Part shown: positions 19,038-35,003 of the stretch, piece after piece
Layout: every line of letters begins with the position of its first letter
Position numbering within the stretch: position 1 is the first letter of the stretch
Assembly (NCBI GenBank): GCA_028285705.1
Contig: JANQOS010000091.1
Location: 1 to 36,600, forward strand
Reading direction: 5' to 3'
DNA from: Altibacter sp.
GTDB taxonomy: Bacteria > Bacteroidota > Bacteroidia > Flavobacteriales > Flavobacteriaceae
Length of the DNA: 36,600 nucleotides
Translations under genes and position numbers: made by a program
Notes under the pieces: model-generated
What the model was told of the DNA's origin: nothing
Database searches by the model: none
What the model saw: the letters and a program-made list of their open reading frames with translations, nothing else

Positions 19038-19814
19038 ATGCAAAAGCTTTTTAAATTTTTTCTGAATTTATTTCCGCGAACTTTACTGATACGAATCAGC
19101 TTTGCGGTTCGCCCTGTTGTGGCATTCTTCTTAAAAGGAACCAAATATACCGATCCCATCGACGGGAGGTCCTTCCGAAAGTTTTTGCCTTACGGTTATG
19201 AGAAAGTGCGTGAAAACGTATTGGCTCCCGGTACATTTTCTTTGGAGCGCCATAGATTATTCTGGCTGTACTTAAAAAATGAAACTCCTTTCTTTTCAGA
19301 AAAACAAAAAGTGCTTCATTTCGCTCCTGAACAGGCATTTTACAAACGTTTTCGTAAAATGAAAAACCTGGAATATACAACAACAGACCTAAACTCACCC
19401 ATTGCAGATGTAAAGGCGGATATTTGCAACCTACCTTTTGAGAACGATCTGTATGATTTTATAATATGCAACCATGTGTTGGAACATATTCCGGATGACA
19501 CAAAAGCCATGCAGGAGCTATACCGTGTATTGGCTCCCGGGGGAACTGCTATTTTACAGGTTCCGTATGAAGAGGGTAGAGAAATTACTTTTGAAGACAA
19601 TAGTATCACAGATCCAAAAGAACGTGCCAGGATATTTGGGCAATACGATCACGTACGCATCTACGGAATGGATTATTTTGAGAAATTAAAAAGTATTGGG
19701 TTTAATGTTGAAGCCGTTAATTATACGGAGACCTTTTCCGAAGAAGAAATCGAGAACTATCGCTTAGCCAAAGGAGAACTCCTTCCGGTTTGCAGAAAGT
19801 CAATCAACCAATAG
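19038..19814 (+). CDS. class I SAM-dependent methyltransferase
   Basis: VLHFAPEQAFYKRFRKM...TTDLNSPIADVKADICNLPFENDLYDFIICNHVLEHIPDDTKAMQELYRVLAPGG. Confidence 0.9.
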   Translation: MQKLFKFFLNLFPRTLLIRISFAVRPVVAFFLKGTKYTDPIDGRSFRKFLPYGYEKVRENVLAPGTFSLERHRLFWLYLKNETPFFSEKQKVLHFAPEQAFYKRFRKMKNLEYTTTDLNSPIADVKADICNLPFENDLYDFIICNHVLEHIPDDTKAMQELYRVLAPGGTAILQVPYEEGREITFEDNSITDPKERARIFGQYDHVRIYGMDYFEKLKSIGFNVEAVNYTETFSEEEIENYRLAKGELLPVCRKSINQ

Positions 19815-20807
19815 TTTTTCAAAATCCTCTGTCATAAAAACCCTGGCATTTCCAAGTGAATCATTGTACGTAAGGTATGCGCTGATTCCGGAGGTTACTT
19901 CCAAAAGTTCTTTTGATCTATTAAGCCCCAATGCCATTAAAGCAGTTGCATAAGCATCTGCCTCTCCACACGAATTTGCTACCACAGTTGCACTTGTAAC
20001 ATCGCTTTGCTCTGCGGAGCCGGTAAGGGGGTTTAATGTGTGTACGTATTTTTTTCCGGTAATGGAATCGATCCTGTATTTACGATAATTCCCGGAAGAG
20101 GCCATAGCCATATCTTTCAAAGTAATAGTCGCTTGATAATTTCGGTTTTCCAATTGAGAATCTACTGTCTCGATGCCAACGATCCAAGGCTTCTCCCTGG
20201 AAAGATTCTTACCTCTTGTTAAAATTTCCCCTCCCAACTCAATTAGGTAATTAGTAATTCCCTGAGCTTCTAAATAACGTCCCAGGCAATCAATTCCGTA
20301 GCCTTTTGCCACCGCATTAAAATCGAAGTAAATCTCAGGATGTTCTTTCATTACCCTCCCGGAACTCAAAATAGTTACTTTATTGAAACCTACATATCGC
20401 ATTAACGAGTCGAGTACATGTGCATCTATCTCTTCAACAGGCTTTGTATCTCCAAATCCGTAGGCATTACGTAATACTCCGATAGTGGGGTCAAAATAAC
20501 CATGGGAATTTTTATGTACAGCCTCGGAAATACGAAATACTTCTTTAAAAATAGCATCTACAACAACCGTGGTATCTCCCCGGTTTATTTTTGAAATATC
20601 ACTATTTGGCATATAAGTACTTACCGATCTGTTTACTGCATGAAGAACCGAGTCAATACCTTTTTCGGCGTCAAATATTTCAGGGGCATAATATTGTATA
20701 GAATACGTAGTTCCAAAAGCATCACCCTGTAAAACAAAAGCCTGTGGAGTTTCTTCTTTACAAGAAAAAAATAAAGCTAAGACGGGAATGAAGTAAAGTA
20801 TTTTCAT
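19800..20807 (-). CDS. apbE: FAD:protein FMN transferase (ApbE), lipoprotein form
   Basis: Lipobox LALFFSC; GDAFGTTYSIQYY, VNRSVSTYMPNSDISKINRG, DFNAVAKGYGID, YLIELGGEI, SSGNYRKYR, HTLNPLTG. Confidence 0.95.
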   Translation of the reverse strand: MKILYFIPVLALFFSCKEETPQAFVLQGDAFGTTYSIQYYAPEIFDAEKGIDSVLHAVNRSVSTYMPNSDISKINRGDTTVVVDAIFKEVFRISEAVHKNSHGYFDPTIGVLRNAYGFGDTKPVEEIDAHVLDSLMRYVGFNKVTILSSGRVMKEHPEIYFDFNAVAKGYGIDCLGRYLEAQGITNYLIELGGEILTRGKNLSREKPWIVGIETVDSQLENRNYQATITLKDMAMASSGNYRKYRIDSITGKKYVHTLNPLTGSAEQSDVTSATVVANSCGEADAYATALMALGLNRSKELLEVTSGISAYLTYNDSLGNARVFMTEDFEKLLVD

Positions 20808-20940
20808 CTATTTAAAAATTTTTATTAATCTGAAAGTGAGCACAATAAAACTTTTCTGCTTAGATCAACCGCTGTGCTTTCACACAAAAAAATTAATTAT
20901 TTCAGTAGGTAAGCAAAAAATTAATTTGTTTATGTTCATT

Positions 20941-21303
20941 TCATAAAATCTCTTGTAAGCCATTGTATACCATTGTATAGGCTTCATTTTTAATGACCGG
21001 CTTTGCGTAATCACTACCATGCCCTAATCCTACTCCGGCATAATACATTTTCGCTTCAAATTTTAGTGCATGTTGTTTGATGGTTTGCATAAAGACAGGA
21101 TCGTACACATTGGCATCTTCAGGGTACGAAATGGCACGAACAATTACAAAATGTAAGTTCTTGTCCTTTAAAGCTACAAACTGCGGATCTTTCTTCAGCT
21201 TAGAATTTACGCCCAAAAACTCATAGCCCTTTTCTTCCAGATCCTTACCTACAATATTCATAGCCAGATTATGTAGTTCCTGCTCGGTAAGTTCTTCTTT
21301 CAT
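20941..21303 (-). CDS. small conserved flavobacterial protein; I recall homologues often being labelled 'Na+-translocating NADH-quinone reductase subunit F', but it has no NqrF domains
   Basis: 120-aa ORF, ATGA overlap with the upstream DUF4846 gene, directly upstream of apbE; no [2Fe-2S] cysteine cluster or FAD/NAD motifs. Confidence 0.75.
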   Translation of the reverse strand: MKEELTEQELHNLAMNIVGKDLEEKGYEFLGVNSKLKKDPQFVALKDKNLHFVIVRAISYPEDANVYDPVFMQTIKQHALKFEAKMYYAGVGLGHGSDYAKPVIKNEAYTMVYNGLQEIL

Positions 21304-22172
21304 ATATCTTTGAATCGAATAAACTTTGTTTCATTAAAATAATAAGTAGGAATTTCAAGGTGTGCACCCATCTCCAGCTTGTACCACGGACTTATTCCGG
21401 GGTCATTCAGATTCTTTAAAACATGAACACTTTGTGCCGGTGTATTTCCCTGGGCTAAAATAAACAATTTTTCACCTTCAGAATTGGTAGCTTTATCTAC
21501 TACCATTACAACATGCCCGGGACTACCCGGATAGATAAGCATATCTCCTACCTCAACAGCATCTATAGAATTAATAGCTGGTAATTCGTCAAACAAGGAT
21601 TGAGTACCTGCATACATGTATATAAGGTTAAGATAATTGTAAAAATTTTTTTTTGAAGAATTCGCACCGGCAGTTTTCAAAAAAGTAACTTTATTACCGT
21701 TAATCTTAGGGCGGTACCCCTCGGCATACTTTTTCCATGAGCAGTAGTGACCAGATGTAAAATTAAAGCCGATCTTGTCTTTTTCGTTACGATCCCACAG
21801 ATATTCTGCCCGTATCCTTATCAATGCATCTGCGCACTGTTGTAACCCATTTTCAGGCACCGGGATCTCCAGAATTCCAACGTGACCCTTTTGGTATATG
21901 TATGCACTACCATCATAATTAATGATCTTTGCATCAAAAGGTTTTAGCGGATACTTCTGAATTGAATTCTTAAAAGTTCCTTCAGCGTATATTTCCCGTA
22001 TATACCCTTCAGGAACATTGATTCTTTCTGAAATAGTAGCCCCTTTCTCGTTTATATAATTAGGAGCAACTACATAGCTCAAAGCAATATTTTTAGCTTT
22101 TTTTCCTTTTTTTGAAAAGAAGAAAAGTCCAATTCCCAAAGCAATTATCACAAATACAATAACTCTCTTCAT
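21300..22172 (-). CDS. DUF4846-like protein, membrane-anchored/exported
   Basis: N-terminal hydrophobic anchor MKRVIVFVIIALGIGLFFFS; QQCADALIRIRAEYLW...FTSGHYCSWKKYAEGYRP...VGDMLIYPGSPGHVVMVVD. ATG at 22172 preferred over 22262. Confidence 0.75.
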   Translation of the reverse strand: MKRVIVFVIIALGIGLFFFSKKGKKAKNIALSYVVAPNYINEKGATISERINVPEGYIREIYAEGTFKNSIQKYPLKPFDAKIINYDGSAYIYQKGHVGILEIPVPENGLQQCADALIRIRAEYLWDRNEKDKIGFNFTSGHYCSWKKYAEGYRPKINGNKVTFLKTAGANSSKKNFYNYLNLIYMYAGTQSLFDELPAINSIDAVEVGDMLIYPGSPGHVVMVVDKATNSEGEKLFILAQGNTPAQSVHVLKNLNDPGISPWYKLEMGAHLEIPTYYFNETKFIRFKDI

Positions 22173-22224
22173 ACTCAAATAACAACTTAAAATGGAATGT
22201 TTTATTTCAAATATGAAATAAAAA

Positions 22225-22251
22225 AACGCCTTCAGTTTTCCTGAAGACGTT
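22225..22251 (-). terminator. Rho-independent terminator after the PL8 lyase gene
   Basis: Minus strand AACGTCTTCAG-GAAAA-CTGAAGGCGTT followed by TTTTT; the one imperfect pair is G.U only in the minus-strand RNA. A second AT dyad TTTTATTTCA-aata-TGAAATAAAA lies at 22200-22223. Confidence 0.8.
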
Positions 22252-22272
22252 TTCTTTATCAATATTTTTTAA

Positions 22273-23932
22273 TTAATGTTTGACGATCCTTTTTGTGATC
22301 GAACCATTTTCGGTATGTATTTTCACAAAATACATGGCTGTCTCTAATGCCGAAATGTCCATCTGATAACTTCCTTCTCCTTTAACAGCAATCCGGTTCA
22401 CCACTCTACCTCTAACATCATACACTTCGACATCTGCAATTGGTGTTTGTGGAGATACAATATTCAAGATATTTTTTGCAGGATTTGGAAAGACAGCTAT
22501 TCTTTTCAGATTATTGTCATCGGTATCTAGGACCACCTCTTCTTCGAACATCAATGTAAACCTTTGATTGAAAGTTCCTTTTCCTGCCTTAAATTGGTAG
22601 TCTCCCTGACCGGTTAGATTATGGATGAAATTCTCCTGATTGTCAACCAGTAATATCTTGGTATTTGCAATATTGTTTCCTTCCAAAGAAGCAATGGATA
22701 TGGTGTAATAGGTATCTGCATCCACCTGAGATGCAAATCCCATGGATACTTTTATGGCAGAGTCAAAGGCTTCCCTGCTTTGAATACCTAATTGTTGTGT
22801 TCCATTTTCCAAATGAGAGTATAGAGAAATGGTCGTTGCTAATCTTTGTGCATCATATCTTTCGTCTAATCCTTGTGTTGCCAGGGGGTTGAATGCTATT
22901 AGTGCATGACTTCCTATTCCGTATTGTTCGTTTCGAACTTTCAGCAATACTTTTTCTATATCGACCGGGTTTCTTAAGGTTGTGTTACCGCTGGTCAATC
23001 GCATCGCGTTTGTAAAGGTTACATTTCCTGCACCAAAGGCCTTGATACCAAATCCCTGTCCGGTGGCGATCACTCCATTGGATTGTGTACTGGTACCGGG
23101 ATCGTTAGCTGCCGGTAGGGCACCTCCGTCTATATACATGGAGATATCATCCATAGAGAAGTTGATACTTCCCGCACCGGGCGTACTTGGGCTTGGTGGG
23201 GTCAAATGTTCCCAGAAATAGATCCTGTCCACCAGCGGATTGGCACTGATAAACTGAGAGGCCGATATGGCAGAAGCATACGGATTGGCCAATGCATTGG
23301 GTGTTCCATCTGGGTTAGGTCCGGCTCCATTGTAAACAATAGGCCTTGTGATGTCTCCGTTGTTAAGGGTTCCCTTGGTATAGGTCATATCAAAGGTGGT
23401 ATTGGCCGGATCGGTGTACCCGGATTGAGGCCTTACAATATATCCTTCTCCCACATTGATGGGTCCACTTGCAAAAGAAGTCCAGAAATCTCCATTGTCA
23501 TCGGCGAAGTTGGTTCCTCCTGCGAGTACGCCCGGGTGTGGTAAGAAGTTGGCCGGTGTATGTTCCAGAACCAAGAAAGCACTTCCAAATACATCGGTAC
23601 GTGTTTCACCACTCATAGGGCTTCCCAGCACCATAAAGTCACGGGTCTGTAAAACAGGGGTGGTGAGTTCTACATTGATGGTTCCGTTGTTGGTCACAGT
23701 AGCAGCACCATCTGTTTGAACGACGCTTCCCGTATGTTTTACGATCAGGCTTCCGTTTACAGCTATGTTTCCATTGATCTTCATATAATTACCAGCTTCA
23801 ACTGTCACGGTCTGTCCGGCCCTTACTTCACAGGTACATGCGTCTATGTTTCCACTTGAAGTATTATAATCTTCAGTGAATATTGCTTTTTTGGTCACAT
23901 CCGGATTTCCATTATCCCACGATCCGGACGAA
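22273..23932 (-). repeat. copy 1 of ~550-aa C-terminal module duplicated in the S8 protease gene
   Basis: Near-identical protein to 28761-30430 (e.g. LTTPVLQTRDFMVLGSPMS...INVGEGYIVRPQSGYTDPANTTFDMTYT...LANPYASAISASQFIS...DRIYFWEHLTPPSPSTPGAGSINFSMDDISMYIDGGALPAAND). Confidence 0.95.
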
Positions 23933-26850
23933 AAAGTTGTTGTTGAAGCACAGGTTTCCGGCCCCTGTTCAAGAAGGACTTCATACGAAAGGCCATCAAC
24001 GGTTGTAAATTCGATCACAGTCTCGGTAGCATTGGCAGAGGTGATCTGAACAGCAGGATTGGTAGTTACAAAATGCCACTCTCCTTGTAAAGTAACTTCT
24101 TTTACTACTGTAATTGAAGCAGCATACGACCTGCTATCAAATCCTATATCCGGATTGCTTAAAGAAAGTAATAAGGTCTGGGCTGTACTATCGTATTCTG
24201 TCATCACCAAACATGAAGAATTTACATCCGTTACATAATCATAACTAAGGTTGGCGGCACTATTGAAAAAAGCATAACCCCAAATATTCTTTGACTCATG
24301 CTCTACAATATGTGCATTGGCATTCTGTTGATGTACGGTATAAGGTTTATTGCCTCCTTGTATATCTGTATCCAGGGATTGCATTTCAGAAATAGAAGAA
24401 TCCGGTTTTAAAATGTATTCGTAGCTTTCATTTGAAGGGCTCGTTCCATGGTCCAGATATCCTATATAATATGTGTCTGTAGCATTGCCACTATAATCTA
24501 CAGGCCATATCTGGTTATAATTAGGAGTTTGCTGTACAGCTTTACTAACTTTTAGACTATGTCCTCCCGAGAGTAAATAAAACCCTGTCCCATAGTTGCT
24601 CAAGACCCAATGATCTGTAGCACCACTGAAGCTCACTTCACTCAAAGAAGATTGACTACTTCCATCTACGGTAACTCCGTTTCCGGTATTATCTATACGC
24701 TGATACAAGGTTGTGATCGTTGGATTGGTAGTGTCATCATTAGAAATTCCGGATCCCAGACAAACAATAATGTCATCAAAATAAAAACTCGATTTTTTAA
24801 ATGTGAATGTATTATTGTGGTTATTGGTAGAATGGGTAGTTCCCCAACCCAGGCCTTCCTGTTCCTGAAAATCCATCGCAAACAGACCATAGTCTCCATG
24901 ATTGTTCAGTAACAATTCACTATTCTTTTTGTTAAGGGTCAATGCTCCTACAAATCGGTTTTGCTGTAACTCATCAATCCTGCCTCTCTCTCCGTGCAAT
25001 TCTGCCCAGGGTAATCTTATCACCGTAGCGCCGGGGCTATAGTTCCAATCCCAGGTATCTACATCATAGCCATTACCAGTCTCCAGATCACCGGGATATA
25101 AAACCTCTAAGGCTCCATAACTTTGGTAACGACCATATCTGTTTGCGGTAGTGTAGATCTCACTACCCCACATATTGTTAGAAAATCCTTTGTTGAATAC
25201 TACCCAGTTGTCCTTTCTGAAAGCACCTGCCGAAGCATGATTGAACTGAAAAAATCCTTCCGTAAATGGTAAGAGACTGCTATAATTGAACTCTGCATCT
25301 ACGCCATAGATTCGGTTATACATTCCCGCAAAAATCGGGTCGGCTGTTGGTAATCCTAAAATATCTCCACCTGCAATCGCTAAAAGTTTTAAGCTTGACT
25401 GGTTAAATTGCCTGATTCTTAATTCGGGTCTTCTACCATTTGTAGATAATGCTTGTATACCATCATCATTAGCTTGCATGTATTGATTATACACCGCATT
25501 TCTGAATACCTCATAACTCGCCTGATCTACCTGAAAACTGGTTCCTCTTAAATAATACAGCAAACTTGCAGCCGTCTTATAAGCGTACAAATAATTGTTA
25601 TAGGCGGTCCAGTGATGAAAACCGGAACCATCTGCTTTTATTCCATCTGTTGTGCCAACTGTATAGGAGAAAAAACGCTCCAAATACCTTTTAAAGCCTC
25701 GCATATACCGATAGCGTTCATCGGCAGTGTCATACCACAAGCTATAAGCCATCATAGCATCTAATATATTGTAGACCAGATCGGTATTAATACTACCATT
25801 TGCAGTTTGATAGGCAGTATCATAGGTAGCGACCCAGTAATGTTCAAACTCAACTGAGTGTTCATATAAAGTATAAGCGAACAGGTCCTTGACATCCGTG
25901 TCAAGAAAATCTTTCAGTAAAGAAGCGGGCCTGGCAAAATCTTCATAAGAATACATCTGGCTATCCAATGACAGGGAACCCGAACAAAATTGTTTTGCTA
26001 CCCACCATACCGTATTGTTTGCCTTTTCCTGAATGGCAGTATCACCGGGGTTGAATTTTAAATGCTGAGCAAATGTTTTTAAAAAGGAAGCTGTGCTGAA
26101 TGAGCTCATAGCGTCACCGGATATTACACCACCCGTTACACTTATATTCAAAGCAGCATACGAGCTTTCTGCAGAAGACAATGTTCCTGCCGAAGGTGCA
26201 CTGGTACCTAAATAACTATCTGAAAACCGGTCAACTGCCAGATTTATTTCAGCTTCTATGGTTGCATTAGAAGAAATTAGGGATAGGTCCGGAGTTAATG
26301 TAAAAGGACAGGTCTGGGCCAGGCTTAAAGAAACATAACTTCCATTGAGCGAAAGGTTATCTATTGCCAAATTACGATATGTATCCCCGGGATCATTTCT
26401 AATATATCTAACCTGTAAGGTATCTCCAACATCACTGGCAACTGCCGTGTAATTCAATGTGGTTAATACCGGAGGTGAACTACTGTTCGAAATTAATACG
26501 GGTGAAGCTGTTGAAGCCAGAACAGTATTATCTGTAACATTATAAAGTTCTACATTGAAACGAACATAAGAGACATTGACATTGTAAGTATAGGTATTTA
26601 TTACAATGGACTCTCCTAAAGTCATGGCTCCACCGAAAGTGTGAGTAACTCCTTGCCCGACAACCGCAGACTGTCCATCAACAAAAATAGCTCCGTCACC
26701 TACTCCATCACCATTATCACCATCTGAAGTAACAATACTCAAATTCACATCGCCGATCTCGGTCCAATAACCCGAAGTGCTTACTACCTGTGCATTGGTT
26801 GTAAAGGTTAAAAATATAACTAAAAGTGTAAATAGGTAAGAGGTTTTCAT
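22273..26850 (-). CDS. polysaccharide lyase family 8, chondroitinase ABC-like, with long C-terminal module and T9SS type A sorting domain
   Basis: GIKADGSGFHHWTAYNNYLYAYKTAASLLYYLRGTSFQV, SNNMWGSEIYTTANRYGRYQSYGALEV, WDWNYSPGATVIRLPW...ERGRIDELQQNRFVGAL; C-term VFPNPAKNILNIVSP...YFVKIHTENGSITKRIVKH. ATG at 26850 gives a clean signal peptide. Confidence 0.88.
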   Translation of the reverse strand: MKTSYLFTLLVIFLTFTTNAQVVSTSGYWTEIGDVNLSIVTSDGDNGDGVGDGAIFVDGQSAVVGQGVTHTFGGAMTLGESIVINTYTYNVNVSYVRFNVELYNVTDNTVLASTASPVLISNSSSPPVLTTLNYTAVASDVGDTLQVRYIRNDPGDTYRNLAIDNLSLNGSYVSLSLAQTCPFTLTPDLSLISSNATIEAEINLAVDRFSDSYLGTSAPSAGTLSSAESSYAALNISVTGGVISGDAMSSFSTASFLKTFAQHLKFNPGDTAIQEKANNTVWWVAKQFCSGSLSLDSQMYSYEDFARPASLLKDFLDTDVKDLFAYTLYEHSVEFEHYWVATYDTAYQTANGSINTDLVYNILDAMMAYSLWYDTADERYRYMRGFKRYLERFFSYTVGTTDGIKADGSGFHHWTAYNNYLYAYKTAASLLYYLRGTSFQVDQASYEVFRNAVYNQYMQANDDGIQALSTNGRRPELRIRQFNQSSLKLLAIAGGDILGLPTADPIFAGMYNRIYGVDAEFNYSSLLPFTEGFFQFNHASAGAFRKDNWVVFNKGFSNNMWGSEIYTTANRYGRYQSYGALEVLYPGDLETGNGYDVDTWDWNYSPGATVIRLPWAELHGERGRIDELQQNRFVGALTLNKKNSELLLNNHGDYGLFAMDFQEQEGLGWGTTHSTNNHNNTFTFKKSSFYFDDIIVCLGSGISNDDTTNPTITTLYQRIDNTGNGVTVDGSSQSSLSEVSFSGATDHWVLSNYGTGFYLLSGGHSLKVSKAVQQTPNYNQIWPVDYSGNATDTYYIGYLDHGTSPSNESYEYILKPDSSISEMQSLDTDIQGGNKPYTVHQQNANAHIVEHESKNIWGYAFFNSAANLSYDYVTDVNSSCLVMTEYDSTAQTLLLSLSNPDIGFDSRSYAASITVVKEVTLQGEWHFVTTNPAVQITSANATETVIEFTTVDGLSYEVLLEQGPETCASTTTFSSGSWDNGNPDVTKKAIFTEDYNTSSGNIDACTCEVRAGQTVTVEAGNYMKINGNIAVNGSLIVKHTGSVVQTDGAATVTNNGTINVELTTPVLQTRDFMVLGSPMSGETRTDVFGSAFLVLEHTPANFLPHPGVLAGGTNFADDNGDFWTSFASGPINVGEGYIVRPQSGYTDPANTTFDMTYTKGTLNNGDITRPIVYNGAGPNPDGTPNALANPYASAISASQFISANPLVDRIYFWEHLTPPSPSTPGAGSINFSMDDISMYIDGGALPAANDPGTSTQSNGVIATGQGFGIKAFGAGNVTFTNAMRLTSGNTTLRNPVDIEKVLLKVRNEQYGIGSHALIAFNPLATQGLDERYDAQRLATTISLYSHLENGTQQLGIQSREAFDSAIKVSMGFASQVDADTYYTISIASLEGNNIANTKILLVDNQENFIHNLTGQGDYQFKAGKGTFNQRFTLMFEEEVVLDTDDNNLKRIAVFPNPAKNILNIVSPQTPIADVEVYDVRGRVVNRIAVKGEGSYQMDISALETAMYFVKIHTENGSITKRIVKH

Positions 26851-26901
26851 CTTGTATGATATGTTTAAATCGGGGAAACTTATCTTCAATTCTTCTATAT
26901 A

Positions 26902-26958
26902 AGAATTGTTGTTTTGGTTTTATCACTTTTTTAAGCTGAAGACCAAAACAACAATTCT
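26902..26958. promoter_or_regulatory. perfect 17-bp inverted repeat (23-nt spacer) between the repeat-protein gene and the PL8 lyase gene
   Basis: AGAATTGTTGTTTTGGT (26902-26918) and ACCAAAACAACAATTCT (26942-26958). Confidence 0.75.
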
Positions 26959-26984
26959 ATGCTAACTTATATGAAAAGTAATCA

Positions 26985-28592
26985 TTATGATTTCTTTTCC
27001 AGTTCACTTAATCTTTTGTTTAGTGCTTCAATAGCGTCTACAGCTTTATCAAGTTGTTCTTTTAGCTGGTTATTTTCGATTTCCAGTGTTTCAATTTTTT
27101 TGGAAGCTTCAATATTATGTAAAAATAACTCCTCCACTTTTTCAAGGTTATCACGAATTCCTTCAGTAACATTCCATCCATTATCCATAACTTCTTTTCT
27201 GCTCTGAACATTAGGTAAGTGATTGTTCTTCATTAAAAACGCTTCGACTTCTTTTAGGCTCTTCAGGCTATACGTCTTATTATATTCTGAAAATCCGGCG
27301 TAATACGTTTCGAATACATAATCAGGATAGGTGTAAGCTCCTCCTGTATTTCTCAGGGTACCTGTTAGGTTAATATCTCCGGCTACATCCAGTGTATATC
27401 CTGGTGTTGCCGTACCAATTCCTACTCTATCTGTACTGGCATCAGCAAAAAATAAATTTGCATCGGTCTGCCCTTCAATCCTGAAGTCAAAATCTCCACT
27501 TGCTTCGTTAGCAACTACATGCCCTCTGTTAAATACTGCAGCATAATAAGTACCGCCGGTTCCATATGAATCAAACCAACCTGCATAATTGGTTCCAGTA
27601 GCACTATTGATATCATTAAAAGTACCGTAACCATTTTTACCGGCCTCTGTATTATTTATATCATTATAGGTACCATATTGATCTCCATTTCCTCCTAATT
27701 GATTTTGAATTCCATACTTGTCTCCTGTTCCGGATCCATCTACATCGTTGATAATACCGGAATGTGTACCGTTCCCTGCGGCTCCATCGTCTCCAATATC
27801 ATTATAAACTCCCGTTCTGGTTCCGTCTTCCGTACCTTTTAGGTTATTATAAACTCCCCACCTGGTTCCGGCCCCGGTATTAATTTTATTATATATACCT
27901 GCAAGCTGCCTGGTGCTTCCTGCAGTTGCATTTAAATTATTGTATAGGCCGTATCGCCTTCCCGATCCTGATCCGCCTCTTACATAAGTACTGATTGCAT
28001 ATTGATCTGTACTACCGGAATCATTATTAACATAATCTACATATAAACCGCGAGATGTTCCGGAATTCGATCCGGAAACCTTAACACTAAGCGCATTTGT
28101 AGAACCAGTTGTTGCAATACTTGCAGCATTAGCAGAAGTATTATCCTGAACATCTAAAGCAGAACTGGCTGTTGTTTTTCCTATGGCAACTTTACCGGTT
28201 CTAAAAACATCGTCTGTGATCGCATCCGGAGGAAGTGAAGTACCTACCTCATGAAAGTCACCATCTTTAAAAGTAATAACAACCCATTGGCTTCCATCCC
28301 AATAATAATATCCCGGAGCAACTGCAGTACTCCCGGATCCTGCCGTGGCAGTATTATAGACCAACAAACTAGTTGCAGGAGCAGGAGTTATAGGTGTACT
28401 GGCATTTGTTGCAGTAAGTGCTACATTGGGGATCAATATACCTTTATCTGTACTGGTAATATCTAACATGGCACCATTTCCCGGAGAAGTAGTATTGATT
28501 CCCACCTGGGCAGTTAGATCTGTTGAAAAACTAAAAATGATACATAAAACCCAGATAAGGGTATAGGCTTGAGGCTGTAAGTATTTCTTCAT
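26985..28592 (-). CDS. secreted tail-fibre-like protein: N-terminal VGINTTSPGNGAMLDI region, tandem short repeats, C-terminal coiled coil
   Basis: Signal peptide; AQVGINTTSP...GAMLDITSTDKGILIPNV typical of Bacteroidota tail-fibre-like proteins; C-terminal LKSLKEVEAFLMKNNHLPNVQSRKEV...EELFLHNIEASKKIETLEIENNQLKEQLDKAVDAIEALNKRLSELEKK. Confidence 0.8.
   Translation of the reverse strand: MKKYLQPQAYTLIWVLCIIFSFSTDLTAQVGINTTSPGNGAMLDITSTDKGILIPNVALTATNASTPITPAPATSLLVYNTATAGSGSTAVAPGYYYWDGSQWVVITFKDGDFHEVGTSLPPDAITDDVFRTGKVAIGKTTASSALDVQDNTSANAASIATTGSTNALSVKVSGSNSGTSRGLYVDYVNNDSGSTDQYAISTYVRGGSGSGRRYGLYNNLNATAGSTRQLAGIYNKINTGAGTRWGVYNNLKGTEDGTRTGVYNDIGDDGAAGNGTHSGIINDVDGSGTGDKYGIQNQLGGNGDQYGTYNDINNTEAGKNGYGTFNDINSATGTNYAGWFDSYGTGGTYYAAVFNRGHVVANEASGDFDFRIEGQTDANLFFADASTDRVGIGTATPGYTLDVAGDINLTGTLRNTGGAYTYPDYVFETYYAGFSEYNKTYSLKSLKEVEAFLMKNNHLPNVQSRKEVMDNGWNVTEGIRDNLEKVEELFLHNIEASKKIETLEIENNQLKEQLDKAVDAIEALNKRLSELEKKS
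27515..28062 (-). repeat. about 12 degenerate 13-18 aa protein repeats, consensus ~(Y/G)G(I/V/T)YN(D/N)(I/L)n...G(T/S)
   Basis: YGLYNNLNATAGSTRQ / AGIYNKINTGAGTR / WGVYNNLKGTEDGTR / TGVYNDIGDDGAAGNGTH / SGIINDVDGSGTGD / YGIQNQLGGNGD / YGTYNDINNTEAGKN / YGTFNDINSATGTN. Confidence 0.85.
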
Positions 28593-28710
28593 AATAATTG
28601 GTTATATCAGAAACAATAATAAACAAATTATTAGACAAAAAGCATTAAAAAACGATTAAATACTATTTTTTTTAACAAATTAAAGAAAAAGACTACATTT
28701 AAGAATAAGA

Positions 28711-28740
28711 AAAGCACTTCCAGTATGTTGAAAGTGCTTT
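28711..28740 (-). terminator. candidate terminator after the S8 protease gene
   Basis: Minus strand AAAGCACTTt...gGAAGTGCTTT followed by TCTTATTCTT. Confidence 0.6.
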
Positions 28741-28760
28741 AAATTTCTGATCTTTTGATG

Positions 28761-30430
28761 TTAATACTTCACAACCCTTTTTGTGATCGTACCATTTTCG
28801 GTATGTATTTTCACAAAATAAATAGCAGTTTCTAAAGCGGAAATATCCATCTGATAACTTCCTTCTCCTTTAACTACAACACGGTTCACTACTCTACCTC
28901 CAACATCATACATCTCAACACTTGTAATAGGACTTTGTGGAGATACAATATTCAGGATATTTTTCGCAGGGTTTGGGAAAACAACTATTCTTTTCAGATT
29001 AGTATCATCGGTATCCAAGACCACCTCTTCTTCGAACATCAATGTAAATCTTTGATTGAAAGTTCCTTTACCACTCTTAAATTCATAATTGCCGGTACTT
29101 AAATTATGGATCACGTTTTCCTGATTATCCACTAAGAATACGGTAGCGTTACTTATATTGATTCCCTCTATTTCAGCAATAGAAATTGTATAAAGAGTCT
29201 CCGCATCCACCTGACTGGCAAAACCCATAGAAATCTTCATGCTACTATCAAAGGTTTCTCTACTCTGAATCCCAAGCTGCTTTGTTTCATTCTCTATCTG
29301 GGAGTATAATGAAATTGTTGTAGCTAATCGCTCAGCATCATATTTTGAATCCAGTCCGGAAGTTGCCAATGGGTTAAACGCAACCAAAGCATAGCTACCA
29401 ATACCATAGTTCTCGTTTCGTACTTTCAACAATATTCTTTCAATATCTACAGAGTTTCTTAAAGTTGTATTTCCTGTAGTTAAGCGCATACTATTTTTAA
29501 AAGTAACTGTAGAAGTAAGGTTTGATTTGATCTTTACTCCAAATCCTTGTCCGGTAGCAATAACCCCATTAGGAGTTGTTGTCCCTCCTCCATCATTAGC
29601 TGCCGGTAAGGCACCTCCATCTATATACATAGAAATATCATCCATAGAAAAATTGATACTTCCGGCACCTGGGGTACTTGGGCTGGGAGGGGTTAAATGC
29701 TCCCAGAAATAGATCCTGTCTACCAAAGCATTATCACTTATGAATTGAGAGGCCGAGATCGCAGAAGCGTATGGATTGGCCAATGCGTTTGGTGTTCCGT
29801 CCGGATTGGTCCCTGCTCCATTATAAACGACCGTTCTCATTACATCCCCATTATTTAAGGTTCCTTGAGTGTAGGTCATATCAAAGGTTGTATTAGCAGG
29901 ATCTGTATATCCGGATTGTGGGCGCACAATATATCCTTCCCCCACATTAATAGGCCCGCTTGCAAAAGAGGTCCAGAAATCATTATTGTCATCTGCAAAA
30001 TTAGTTCCTCCTGCCGGTACTCCCGGATGGGGCAAAAAGCTGGCAGGAGTATGTTCCAGTACCAGGAATGCGCTATTGTACACACCGGTACGGGTCTCGG
30101 CGCTCATTGGGCTTCCCAGTACCATAAAGTCCCGAGTTTGTAAAACTGGAGTCGTTAGCTCTACATTAATGTTGGCACTTCCTCCTTTAGTTACTAATGC
30201 ATTGGAATTAGTCTGCACAACACTTCCCTGATGCTCTACCACTAAGTTTCCGTTTACAGTAATGTTTCCATATATGTCTATAAAACTATTGGCAGGAATG
30301 GTAAGTGTTGCCCCTAAATTAATTGTAAGGTCACAGGCAACAATGTCTCCGTCCGTATCTGTGTTATAGGGCCCTGCAATCACCACAGAATTTGTAATAT
30401 CCGGTACTCCTGTTGGACTCCATGAAGAAC
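28761..30430 (-). repeat. copy 2 of the ~550-aa C-terminal module shared with the PL8 lyase gene
   Basis: See copy 1 at 22273-23932. Confidence 0.95.
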
Positions 30431-33400
30431 CGTTCCAGGTCTTAACACTTCCCGGACAGGATACAAACGCGCCGGCCGGGCCAAATAAATAGGTTCCCTC
30501 CAGTCCTGTAAATGTTCCTGTTAAAGTAACATTAGAAGCAAAAGAACCGATCGTTAATGTAGATGTTTCATTCAGTGCTCCTCCCGTATATCTTCCGGAA
30601 GTTAAAACGTTTCTTGATAAGCCTGTTGCTGCCTCCCATCCTGCAATTTCAGCTTCAGTGAAATAAAATGTAATACTTGTACTACCCGATCCGGTCACAA
30701 ATGTTGGAGTAATATCAAATGTCTTATCCATCACTAAATTAGGAGAAGAACTACCATTGTTAGATTGTGCTCCGGTTCCCGCCCTGGAAACCGAAACGTC
30801 TACACAACCAAAATCATGTGTATTGCTATTGGTAATATCCAGCATTACATCTCCAGAAGCACTATCTGAAGTATACATTGTTCCTGTACCAGGCAGGTCG
30901 ATCTGGTCATTTGTAGTTCCGGTATTTACTGCAGTTTGTACTGGGCTTTCAATAGTTACTGTAATGTCAAGAGCATCAAAAAACAGAAGTCCGTTATTTG
31001 CCGCGGAATTATAGTGCCTGATCACAAAATAACCTGTTTGCCCTGCCAGGGTTGTATTATTTACTGTTCTGACATCCCCTACATTTGCAGTTGCATCACG
31101 TTCTTCAAGTATGGTTCCCGCATCAATTGCTGCATATGATGAGATGTCCGTTGTCCACTGAAGCCTATAATGCTCTATATCATTATATCCGGCTATAGAA
31201 AAAGTAAATGCGGTATTGGTAGCACCAGCCGGTATAGTCATTTGCGGACTAATAAGATAGTTATCGGCATTTGCTGAGCCTGATCCTCCTAATACGGTAA
31301 GGTCTGTTTCTGATGCCGCAAACTGTCCTGAGAATCCTGTTAAACCTCCCGAAGTAAAAGAAATTGACTTCCATCCTTCTCCGTCACCATCTCTGTCCGC
31401 ATTTAACCAACCGGTCCAATCTTCAAAATCTTCGGTCAATAGGGTAATATCTTGCGTACTTGCCGGAGCAACATCATCGCTATTAATAGTAATTTTAAGT
31501 GAATCTGCATTTGTATTTGCTGTTGCATCTCCTCCATTAGCATTAACTGTAAAGTCAATAATTATTGTTTCCGGGCTTTCAACAAAACCGTCATGATAAA
31601 CACGTACTGTTATATTTTGGGAAGTTGTCTGACCTTGTAAAAAGGTTACTGAGTTTGTCATAAGATCAAAATCCACTCCATTAGTTGCTGTTCCTCCAGC
31701 TACTGTAAAAGTAACGTCCGCATCTTGAGATGGAGCCATAGCAATATTAACAGGCATAACTACATCTGTGAAACTACAATTGGTTTGTTCGGTAGCAATT
31801 GCGGTAATGGAATTATAAGAGATCTCCGGGGAAGTAACTGAAATAATTCCTCCGGTCACTATCAAAGAAAAGTTCTGTGATCCACCCGAAAGAGTCCCTT
31901 TATGTGTTACTGAAAGCGTATACTGGCCAGAAGCACTACTAATATCAATTCTTTCATAAGGATCCACTATGTTATCACCTGTACCATTTGTGGTAACTCC
32001 TGTAAGTCTCCATGGAGTAAAAGAAGTTCCATTATCCAATCTAATATCTAAGTCGTTTACCAATGCCGGAGTATTACTATTTGTTCCATTATTAATCGTT
32101 CCGGCCGGATCTGTCCAGGAAATGGAAGCCATTAATGGGTTTACACCGTCTGCCTGGATAGTAACCTGGTAGGTTTGTCCCTGGGAAAGTGTCAATTCAG
32201 AAATTACAGCATTAGTTGGCGCGGCTGCAATTGTTTCGGCTGCTGCCTTTGCATTCATCAAACCCCATCCGGTTTGGGCATCGGGCCCAGTTGGAGAAAC
32301 ATCATCTGCAGTGTGTAGTGCAAGGCCTTTAAGGGTTGCGGCTCTCATAAATGCCCCATGAACATCAAAATAATAATCCTGAAGTAGTAAAAGCGTTCCC
32401 GTTACATTAGGAGCAGACATTGATGTTCCCGATATGGTCCCATATGCACTATCACTTCCATGAAAAGTAGAAGTTAGTAAAGTACCATTTCCCATAATGT
32501 CTGGTTTAATACGGTAATCATCTGTTGGTCCTTCACTACTGCCAGAATTTCTTGTTACTGATACCAAATTTCCACTTCCGTCAATATTTGCATCCTGACC
32601 GTTAGCAATTACAAGATTATTCTTGGCACAAGCATCTCCATTCAATTTATCATAAGATGACTGGCCGTCCAATGGATTCCCATTAGAAGCATTATCGTCT
32701 CCATCATTACCAGCCGATTTAATCTGTAAATAGTAAGGTGCGTTGTACATTATTTCGTCCCATTCCCGTGCATCGGAACCATATTGTCCAAACCATGAAT
32801 TGGGAATCAATGTAGCATCAAAACCATACGAGTGATTTGATAAAAGCATTCCCGATGAGGCAGCTGTCGTGGCTTCTGTTACATCATTATCCCAATCATA
32901 TGTTAAAGCATCTGCTTTCCATGCCATTCCTTTGGCTGCTGCCGAAAACCCTGATGCTACTATAGTACCTGTAACGTGTTGTGCGTGAAAACTATTAGAA
33001 TTAAGAGTTGTAACTCCATCATTGATAGTCACTCTATTGGTCCCTCCTGCGCCATCAAATTCCTGATGCGTAGGCCTTGTAGGCCCACCATCCCACACAT
33101 AAGCTGTTAAACCATCACCATCTATTGTTAAACCAAGACCTCCTCCGGTATTCAAGTAGTTAGCCCGTGTTGAGATTGCAGCATTCACATTATGTAATGT
33201 GTAATATATCGGAGAACCGTCCGGAGCTATTTTCTGAAGCTCATCGAAAGAACCATCTTCGTTATATTTTTTTACTGGTATATTGTGGATCAACGCATAG
33301 GCAACAGCCGCTTCCTTTTCCGCTATTTGTTTTGCGCTATAACGATTGTACAATTCTGTCAATTTTATTTGATCATAGCTATCAACAATTGTCTGAATCT

Positions 33401-33488
33401 GTTCCGAATACTTAGTAGTACTTTCTTCTTTTTGGGCATTACCCATAAAAAAAGACAATAGAAACAAGGATAAAATAATTTTTTTCAT
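28761..33488 (-). CDS. S8 (subtilisin-like) serine protease with Calx-beta-like, choice-of-anchor-like and shared C-terminal modules plus T9SS type A sorting domain
   Basis: D region YVWDGGPTRPTHQEFD, H region HAQHVTGTIVASG, S region GTSMSAPNVTGTLLLL; Calx-beta-like DADVTFTVAGGTATNGVDFDL...VRVYHDGFVESPETIIIDF; C-term VFPNPAKNILNIVSP...YFVKIHTENGTITKRVVKY. Confidence 0.93.
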   Translation of the reverse strand: MKKIILSLFLLSFFMGNAQKEESTTKYSEQIQTIVDSYDQIKLTELYNRYSAKQIAEKEAAVAYALIHNIPVKKYNEDGSFDELQKIAPDGSPIYYTLHNVNAAISTRANYLNTGGGLGLTIDGDGLTAYVWDGGPTRPTHQEFDGAGGTNRVTINDGVTTLNSNSFHAQHVTGTIVASGFSAAAKGMAWKADALTYDWDNDVTEATTAASSGMLLSNHSYGFDATLIPNSWFGQYGSDAREWDEIMYNAPYYLQIKSAGNDGDDNASNGNPLDGQSSYDKLNGDACAKNNLVIANGQDANIDGSGNLVSVTRNSGSSEGPTDDYRIKPDIMGNGTLLTSTFHGSDSAYGTISGTSMSAPNVTGTLLLLQDYYFDVHGAFMRAATLKGLALHTADDVSPTGPDAQTGWGLMNAKAAAETIAAAPTNAVISELTLSQGQTYQVTIQADGVNPLMASISWTDPAGTINNGTNSNTPALVNDLDIRLDNGTSFTPWRLTGVTTNGTGDNIVDPYERIDISSASGQYTLSVTHKGTLSGGSQNFSLIVTGGIISVTSPEISYNSITAIATEQTNCSFTDVVMPVNIAMAPSQDADVTFTVAGGTATNGVDFDLMTNSVTFLQGQTTSQNITVRVYHDGFVESPETIIIDFTVNANGGDATANTNADSLKITINSDDVAPASTQDITLLTEDFEDWTGWLNADRDGDGEGWKSISFTSGGLTGFSGQFAASETDLTVLGGSGSANADNYLISPQMTIPAGATNTAFTFSIAGYNDIEHYRLQWTTDISSYAAIDAGTILEERDATANVGDVRTVNNTTLAGQTGYFVIRHYNSAANNGLLFFDALDITVTIESPVQTAVNTGTTNDQIDLPGTGTMYTSDSASGDVMLDITNSNTHDFGCVDVSVSRAGTGAQSNNGSSSPNLVMDKTFDITPTFVTGSGSTSITFYFTEAEIAGWEAATGLSRNVLTSGRYTGGALNETSTLTIGSFASNVTLTGTFTGLEGTYLFGPAGAFVSCPGSVKTWNGSSWSPTGVPDITNSVVIAGPYNTDTDGDIVACDLTINLGATLTIPANSFIDIYGNITVNGNLVVEHQGSVVQTNSNALVTKGGSANINVELTTPVLQTRDFMVLGSPMSAETRTGVYNSAFLVLEHTPASFLPHPGVPAGGTNFADDNNDFWTSFASGPINVGEGYIVRPQSGYTDPANTTFDMTYTQGTLNNGDVMRTVVYNGAGTNPDGTPNALANPYASAISASQFISDNALVDRIYFWEHLTPPSPSTPGAGSINFSMDDISMYIDGGALPAANDGGGTTTPNGVIATGQGFGVKIKSNLTSTVTFKNSMRLTTGNTTLRNSVDIERILLKVRNENYGIGSYALVAFNPLATSGLDSKYDAERLATTISLYSQIENETKQLGIQSRETFDSSMKISMGFASQVDAETLYTISIAEIEGINISNATVFLVDNQENVIHNLSTGNYEFKSGKGTFNQRFTLMFEEEVVLDTDDTNLKRIVVFPNPAKNILNIVSPQSPITSVEMYDVGGRVVNRVVVKGEGSYQMDISALETAIYFVKIHTENGTITKRVVKY

Positions 33489-33544
33489 AAGATTAAAGAA
33501 TGTCGCGGGGTTTACTATTATATGATAAATACTATATAATTGAT

Positions 33545-33574
33545 CAAAAATAGCATTTTATCGGAAAAATGCAA
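33545..33574 (-). promoter_or_regulatory. Bacteroidota-type promoter for the S8 protease gene: TTG-N19-TATTTTTG
   Basis: Minus strand TTGcatttttccgataaaatgcTATTTTTG, about 57 nt upstream of the ATG. Confidence 0.65.
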
Positions 33575-33641
33575 CATTTAATCGATAAAAACAATAATTT
33601 TACCGACCAAAGACACTTAACCATCTATAAAAATACAGAAT

Positions 33642-33672
33642 AAAAAAGCCGTTTCAAAGTATTGAAACGGCT
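33642..33672 (-). terminator. strong Rho-independent terminator after nqrF
   Basis: Minus strand AGCCGTTTCA...TGAAACGGCT followed by TTTTTA, 24 nt past the nqrF stop. Confidence 0.9.
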
Positions 33673-33695
33673 TTAAGAATTTTGTAATAAATAAA

Positions 33696-35003
33696 TTACC
33701 CTCCGAAATCGTCGAAACGTATATTTTCATCAGGGATACCAAAGTCTTCACCCATTTTCTGAACCGCCTGATTCATTAACGGTGGCCCACAGAAATACAA
33801 TTCTATATCTTCCGGTGCTTCATGATGATTTAAATAGTTATCTATCACTACTTGGTGAATAAAACCTACAAAACCGTCCCCTTCATCATTGATATCCTTC
33901 TTCACCTTCCAGTTATCTTCTTCCATAGGTTCGGAAAGTGCCATATAGAATTTGAAATTAGGGAAGTCTTTTTCCAAATTACGGAAATGATCTATATAAA
34001 ATAATTCTCTTTTAGAACGCCCTCCATACCAATAGGTCACTTTACGTCCAGTTTTTAAGGTTCTGAATAAATGATACAAATGTGAACGCATAGGTGCCAT
34101 TCCGGCTCCTCCTCCAACATATAGCATCTCAGCTTCCGAAGGGTTAATGAAAAACTCCCCATAAGGTCCGGAAATGGTTACTTTATCTCCTTTTTTACAG
34201 TTGAAGATATACGAAGATGCAATACCCGGATTTACACTCATCCATTGATTTTTTGCACGGTCCCAAGGCGGAGTTGCCACACGGACATTCAACATAATCT
34301 CACGCCCTTCTGCAGGGTAAGAAGCCATAGAGTAGGCTCTTTCTACCGTTTCGGTATTCTTCATTACCAATGGCCAAAGTCCAAATTTGTCCCATTCGGC
34401 TTTAAACTTATCCGGTGTATCGTGCTCTTCAGGGTGTGCAGTGATATCCATGTCTTCAAACTTCACTTCACACGGTGGAATCTCTATTTGAATGTATCCT
34501 CCGGCCTTGTAATTCATATCCTCCGGAATTTCAACTACAAACTCTTTAATAAATGATGCCACATTATAGTTCCTTACAACAGTTGCCTCCCACTTTTTAA
34601 TTCCGAAGACTTCTTCAGGAATATGAATATTCATATCCTGTTTTACTTTTACCTGGCACGATAATCGTGCTCCTTCTTTCAACTCTTTACGTGTAAAGTG
34701 TGGCGTTTCTGTAGGTAGGGCTTCTCCCCCTCCTTCCAATACATGGCATTCACACTGAATACATGTTCCACCTCCACCACAAGCAGACGGTAGAAATATT
34801 TTTTGATTTCCTAAAGTTGAAAGCAATGTCCCTCCGGATTCTACCTCAATTACTTTTTCATCATTGATGGTGATCTTTACAGGTCCCGAAGGCGATAATT
34901 TTTGTTTCGTAAAAAGTAATAGCGCAACCAAAAGCAAGGTTAAAACCAAAAAGGCCACTACTGTTGCAATTATGACGCCAAGTGTGCTCGCTGCTAAAAA
35001 CAT
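33696..35003 (-). CDS. nqrF: Na+-translocating NADH:quinone reductase subunit F
   Basis: N-terminal TM, [2Fe-2S] [29 protein letters not shown] site, [27 protein letters not shown]. Confidence 0.97.

Follow-up and report, generated by a model that had tools for sequence, protein, structure and literature searches.

Two enzymes encoded in the window, which is the whole stretch of 36,600 nucleotides of Altibacter sp. DNA analysed here, have unrelated catalytic parts and end in the same ~550 residues. On profile alignment this shared stretch is a RemA/RemZ-type C-terminal module. Our results suggest, with moderate confidence, that it serves for surface display of T9SS substrates and that its DNA is homogenised between cargos. 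The two enzymes, their module copies and the gene between them are as follows.

22273..26850 (-): PL8-like (chondroitinase-like) lyase, 1525 aa from the ATG at 26850 (ORF; PF02278, PF09093)
24397..25842 (-): PL8 catalytic and super-sandwich region of the lyase (Pfam, residues 350-831)
28761..33488 (-): S8 (subtilase) protease, 1575 aa, which also has Calx-beta-like and cleaved-adhesin (anchor J) domains
32262..33005 (-): S8 catalytic domain of the protease (PF00082, E 4.6e-22, residues 162-409)
22273..23952 (-): lyase copy of the module (BLASTP, profile alignment)
28761..30449 (-): protease copy of the module (BLASTP)
26985..28592 (-): 535-aa protein with a C-terminal coiled coil, between the two enzymes

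By both its catalytic (PF09093, E 3.3e-20, 73 bits) and its super-sandwich domain (PF02278, E 2.8e-28, 99.6 bits) the lyase is a PL8 enzyme; the chondroitinase-AC equivalog model scores 48.9 on it, far under the cut-off of 1000. Its open reading frame is listed as 22273-26889 (-) with a TTG start; the ATG at 26850, next to a signal-like stretch, is the likelier start. The protease matches PF00082 at 79 bits against a gathering score of 21.8 and carries the serine motif GTSMSAP. Both proteins begin with hydrophobic, signal-like N-terminal stretches, MKTSYLFTLLVIFLTFTTNAQ and MKKIILSLFLLSFFMGNAQ.

From residue ~985 of the lyase and ~1017 of the protease the two can be aligned to the last residue of each, with 77% amino acid identity over ~555 residues and ~75% at the DNA level (BLASTP E = 0.0, well beyond chance). 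An earlier note, made from the letters alone, had described these C-termini as nearly alike and the catalytic halves as unrelated, and both statements hold: the block LTTPV...GGALPAAND spans 189 residues with exactly 15 differences, while the N-terminal parts reach 22% in a forced alignment and fall to PL8 and S8 in Pfam. The bounds given there, 23932 and 30430, are essentially right, except that the likeness begins slightly upstream, at ~23952 and ~30449. Over the first ~90 module residues the lyase and protease are only ~45% identical. G+C content is 0.44 in the lyase module, 0.41 in the protease module and 0.38 in the window. Next to a module gene of UBA4166 (L033 1485-4016) there are several copies, 41-65% identical, of an N-terminal segment of ~80-100 aa of the 535-aa protein.

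The module has three parts, which in the lyase and, for the sorting domain, in the protease lie as follows.

23683..23952 (-): first ~90 module residues of the lyase, beta-rich by prediction (pLDDT mostly 73-96), 42-48% identical in same-genome pairs
22519..23682 (-): unnamed conserved core of the lyase (residues ~91-478), without a family match; homogenisation between copies affects this part
22276..22494 (-): T9SS type A sorting domain of the lyase (TIGR04183, E 1.1e-15; fold match to the RemA and RemZ CTD)
28761..28982 (-): T9SS type A sorting domain of the protease (TIGR04183, E 1.1e-12, residues 1503-1574)

Only the last ~75 residues of the module have a name in Pfam and NCBIfam, that of the type A signal, which scores 53 and 48 bits in the two enzymes against a curated cut-off of 23. 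The ~480 residues ahead of it match nothing in either collection in the window pair. The module is, as had been proposed, far longer than the signal. A scan of the ~390-aa core in 72 diverse members likewise returned no named domain; apart from tail models, weak matches turned up here and there, none of them in more than two members. The suggestion of an unnamed module therefore stands as far as domain names go, but characterised relatives do exist: a profile built from the 72 modules matches F. johnsoniae RemZ (E 1.2e-111, positions 3-549 of 551) and RemA (E 5.1e-102, positions 2-549 of 551) over nearly its whole length. In a fold search the predicted sorting domain matches the RemA and RemZ CTD structures, and outside the CTD only Ig-like noise was returned. 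Structure models of the core (two AlphaFold runs with 12 sequences) were poor, with mean pLDDT of 53 and 46.

The earlier note had pointed to a similar C-terminus on other secreted proteins of Flavobacteriaceae, and a search of genomes bears this out, finding the module, on many unrelated cargos, in 87 of 151 genomes of the family, with up to 10 copies per genome, and in 88 of 396 at the level of the phylum. Neither outcome that the note had named as refuting its proposal, matches to a named domain of known role alone or a pair peculiar to this genome, has come about. Full-length matches are nearly limited to Flavobacteriaceae and its order, those elsewhere being mostly partial. SprA is found in all 88 module-positive genomes against 305 of the 396 overall (hypergeometric p 3e-12, a statistic that ignores shared descent), and the window genome (G000) also encodes it (match E 1e-150). 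In every complete copy examined the module is C-terminal. Most modules measure 549-605 aa, a near-constant length, and intact copies stop no more than ~80-95 residues short of the C-terminal residue; a few longer spans and shorter tails are an effect of the automatic boundary call. By Pfam the cargos include PL8, S8, M36, M4, M14, M43 and DUF1028 as well as MAM, LVIVD, sortilin/BNR, GEVED, fn3 and the T9SS-associated galactose-binding repeat; proteases, DUF1028, beta-propeller and adhesin-like proteins are thus among them. The window pair are the only module copies found in the window genome (77% complete), where the other 28 matches listed are sorting domains, some with a little flanking sequence. 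As would be expected of long near-identical repeats, several assemblies break inside module copies (G106 C24/C76, G074 C5, G064 C46/C24, G012 C18/C23), and module counts in drafts and bins are therefore probably too low. Dense arrays of module genes within ~20 kb occur in one genus (g128), for example at G350:C1:2777698-2799000. A viral collection gave one distant match (L130 4001-5149, 22% identity) on a 211-kb contig that may be host DNA.

What the module does is suggested by RemA, by analogy with which it probably retains its enzymes on the outside of the cell. It would consist of a beta-rich linker (~90 aa), the unnamed beta-rich core (~390 aa) and the type A sorting domain. The sorting domain would be recognised by PorV and the SprA translocon and cut off outside, leaving the core as the mature C-terminus beside the outer membrane, where it may act as a stalk by which the enzyme is retained at the surface for a time and not released. 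It is known that type A CTDs pass to PorV and SprA, that PorU removes them, and that cargo is in some cases anchored and in others set free (PMC10202324). When tagged ahead of the CTD, native RemA forms mobile foci in 86% of fluorescent cells. With its own C-terminal region RemA forms surface foci of both kinds, mobile and static, whereas SprB given the RemA CTD only is immobile; the authors credited the CTD (PMC12618676). We regard the RemA core as a candidate alternative source of the mobile fraction. The RemA CTD alone, for its part, gives static surface anchoring and release (PMC12618676); anchoring may therefore not need the core, and the claim of display is limited to that extent.

Two other roles for the core have to be weighed. 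It may be an extended aid to secretion or folding, a maturation cassette that helps the substrate to remain unfolded or to dock at the translocon and is without function once export is complete. Its constant place directly ahead of the sorting domain and its restriction to genomes with SprA would fit such a role, but bare type A CTDs of ~100 aa are enough for export of a reporter (PMC10994853, PMC12618676), and the core is absent from most type A proteins of the window genome and from the PL8 relatives; we consider this reading quite unlikely. It may also be a domain that binds a substrate or carbohydrate and brings the enzymes to it, display being incidental. Such a role would suit cargos that range from a polysaccharide lyase and proteases to repeats of adhesin type, RemA itself is an adhesin of lectin type (PMC12618676), and the core has conserved aromatic and Asn residues (N223-P224, W247, Q299) that could line a site. 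Against this, a single strongly conserved domain sits on enzymes with unrelated substrates and the core matches no carbohydrate-binding family, which leaves ligand binding an unlikely explanation. Retention of cargo at the surface is the role that we prefer.

The second part of our reading is that copies in the same genome exchange DNA by gene conversion while their cargos diverge normally, and that modules stay alike within a genome because of this exchange. In the module tree many copies cluster by genome and not by cargo, and AU tests reject a single clade for the cargos S8 (p 0.0019), LVIVD (p 1.8e-5), DUF1028 (p 9e-8) and M36 (p 1e-46). The tree takes 17 changes of cargo label and 20 of genome label, counts that have different minima and are not directly comparable. 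Several modules on unrelated cargos of one genome are 70-90% identical, whereas those on the same cargo in other genera reach only 41-71%. There are exceptions: same-genome copies in G077 and G119 are as distant as copies across genera, and the GBD cargo group keeps a separate module clade. Judged from the sequences, gene conversion is clear in some same-genome pairs. The DUF1028 and M4 genes of G064 share an identical run of 738 nt with divergent flanks (chi-square p 2.5e-21), and their four-fold sites are 97-100% identical in the core, against 24% over the first 90 residues and 80% over the tail; those first ~90 residues are divergent even between converted copies. Milder cases occur in UBA4166 and Altibacter MAG_02.

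In the window pair the signs of conversion are weaker and patchy. With dN 0.17 and dS ~1.9 the two modules are, by these distances, old copies, and the longest exact tracts are 29-30 nt, much as the earlier note had described short identical tracts amid synonymous changes in what it took for an older copy kept similar by selection and/or patchy conversion. Could purifying selection on an old duplication account for the likeness by itself? The silent sites are close to saturation, and most of the similarity in this pair is therefore selective. However, identity at four-fold sites reaches 63-65% in two segments, alignment columns 200-310 and the tail, against 23-40% outside them (p 0.0013); control pairs are even in this respect (p 0.28-0.66). 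The lyase module is moreover a mosaic at silent sites, LVIVD-like until the tail and S8-like within it (permutation p 0.0002, with S8 and LVIVD modules as the candidate sources), and its four-fold identity to LVIVD is 81% in columns 90-200. Together with the plain conversion in related genomes, this makes selection without any conversion somewhat unlikely; uneven constraint could contribute to the patchiness. The combination of selection and conversion remains our preferred account of the pair.

The module of the lyase appears to be a later addition. Relatives of its PL8 part were found in 17 other genomes among the 301 searched, and none of the nine best (at most 56% identical) has the module; the sorting domain at the end of each is either bare or spaced differently. 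Because these relatives are without it, the lyase most likely acquired the module secondarily, within its own lineage, and apparently from resident copies. According to the module tree, the lyase and protease modules had diverged before the window genome split from its sister, G091.

The two enzyme genes lie between nqrF and apbE, an interval that we refer to as a slot and whose remaining features are these.

33696..35003 (-): nqrF, which borders the slot upstream (Fer2 and NAD-binding domains by Pfam)
19800..20807 (-): apbE, which borders the slot downstream (PF02424, E 1e-72)
21300..22262 (-): DUF4846 protein, slot gene downstream of the cargo genes (PF16138, E 2.1e-85)
22219..22253 (-): terminator-like hairpin past the lyase, in the same flank as follows the S8 gene in G091

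In G091 the order is nqrF, S8, DUF4846, apbE, with flanking proteins 90-100% identical to those of the window, and both the lyase and the 535-aa gene are absent. The G091 sequence is protease-like until the stop codon and lyase-like beyond it, the 3' flank of the window lyase being that of the G091 protease. This switch points to one insertion or deletion with an edge at the end of the module gene, the lyase having been either gained in the window genome or lost in G091. A crossover inside the module as the cause of a lyase insertion is not supported, the breakpoint lying instead at the stop codon.

The arrangement could be thought to be an artefact of repeats misjoined in an incomplete metagenome bin. 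The bin is 77% complete in 189 contigs, and other assemblies do break inside modules. However, the two copies differ at about a quarter of their nucleotides, gene order on both sides is that of G091 and the 3' flank of the lyase is the native flank of the slot, and we hold a misassembly to be extremely improbable.

In 16 of the 18 genomes of the clade defined by NqrF, the interval from nqrF to apbE contains one or two module genes, which in nearly every case follow nqrF immediately and share its orientation. The cargos are S8, S8+PL8, S8+M36, M36, BNR, M43, GEVED+BNR or others; G027 and G039 have no module gene there. Altibacter MAG_02 was counted from the apbE side only, its locus stopping short of nqrF, and 4 of the 16 positive slots lie on contigs that are interrupted close to the module or past it. 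None of 26 other genomes of the family with an intact interval has a module in it (16/18 against 0/26, in related and hence not independent genomes). The interval (window 19800-35003; loci L167-L206) is variable across the family, and outside the window clade it holds other genes, mostly in opposite orientation, of up to ~18 kb. Across these genomes, then, the slot changes its genes and keeps the module. It is possible, though we lean against it, that nqrF and the module serve as homology arms by which whole N-terminal cargos are swapped in one step, the module being both display stalk and recombination handle. Such a cassette system would renew the surface enzymes. Our literature search found no paper describing the nqrF-apbE slot.

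Why some cargo with the same type A signal is retained at the surface and some released is described as unresolved (PMC10202324). A module with ~480 residues ahead of its signal, common to RemA, RemZ and many hydrolases, is a concrete candidate determinant of this choice, and one that can be deleted or grafted. Through homogenisation of the module and through the nqrF-apbE slot, these secreted enzymes of marine bacteria that degrade polysaccharide and protein are also a natural example of how modules evolve in concert while cargo is turned over. A name for the core would also improve the annotation of such proteins in much of Flavobacteriaceae.

The closest known systems are RemA and RemZ of F. 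johnsoniae (PDB 8gl6, 8gl8), whose C-terminal ~540 residues align with the entire module from linker to CTD. Those two proteins are adhesins, whereas the window cargos are PL8 and S8 enzymes without a lectin-type N-terminal region and are therefore not RemA orthologues. RemA and RemZ are the substrates seen in structures of the T9SS translocon; only the RemZ CTD is well resolved there (PMC10994853), and for that reason the core is without a structure. Our literature search found no description of the RemA/RemZ upstream core as a family. The last ~75 residues of the module are a standard type A sorting domain (TIGR04183, PF18962), which by itself measures ~75-100 aa and occurs on many proteins of the window genome without the core. 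The type C C-terminus of ChiA (NF033708) shows weak similarity to the tail in 48 of the 72 module members (E at most 0.001), but in the window pair it scores 17.3 bits on the lyase against a cut-off of 40 and does not match the protease; by these models both enzymes fit type A and not type C substrates.

It is already known that T9SS modules are shared and exchanged between surface proteins in P. gingivalis (PMC5266723). The cleaved-adhesin modules of kgp, rgpA and hagA are likewise near-identical stretches C-terminal to different catalytic parts of T9SS surface proteins, with identical repeats within and between genes and exchange of variants (PMC5266723). The domains concerned in P. gingivalis are others (CAD, DUF2436), internal and repeated, whereas here each protein has one unnamed module directly ahead of the CTD and the types of cargo are many more. 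What our analysis adds to that precedent is a distinct RemA/RemZ-type module, unnamed and single-copy, that is carried by cargos as varied as these, its homogenisation within genomes and its fixed chromosomal slot.
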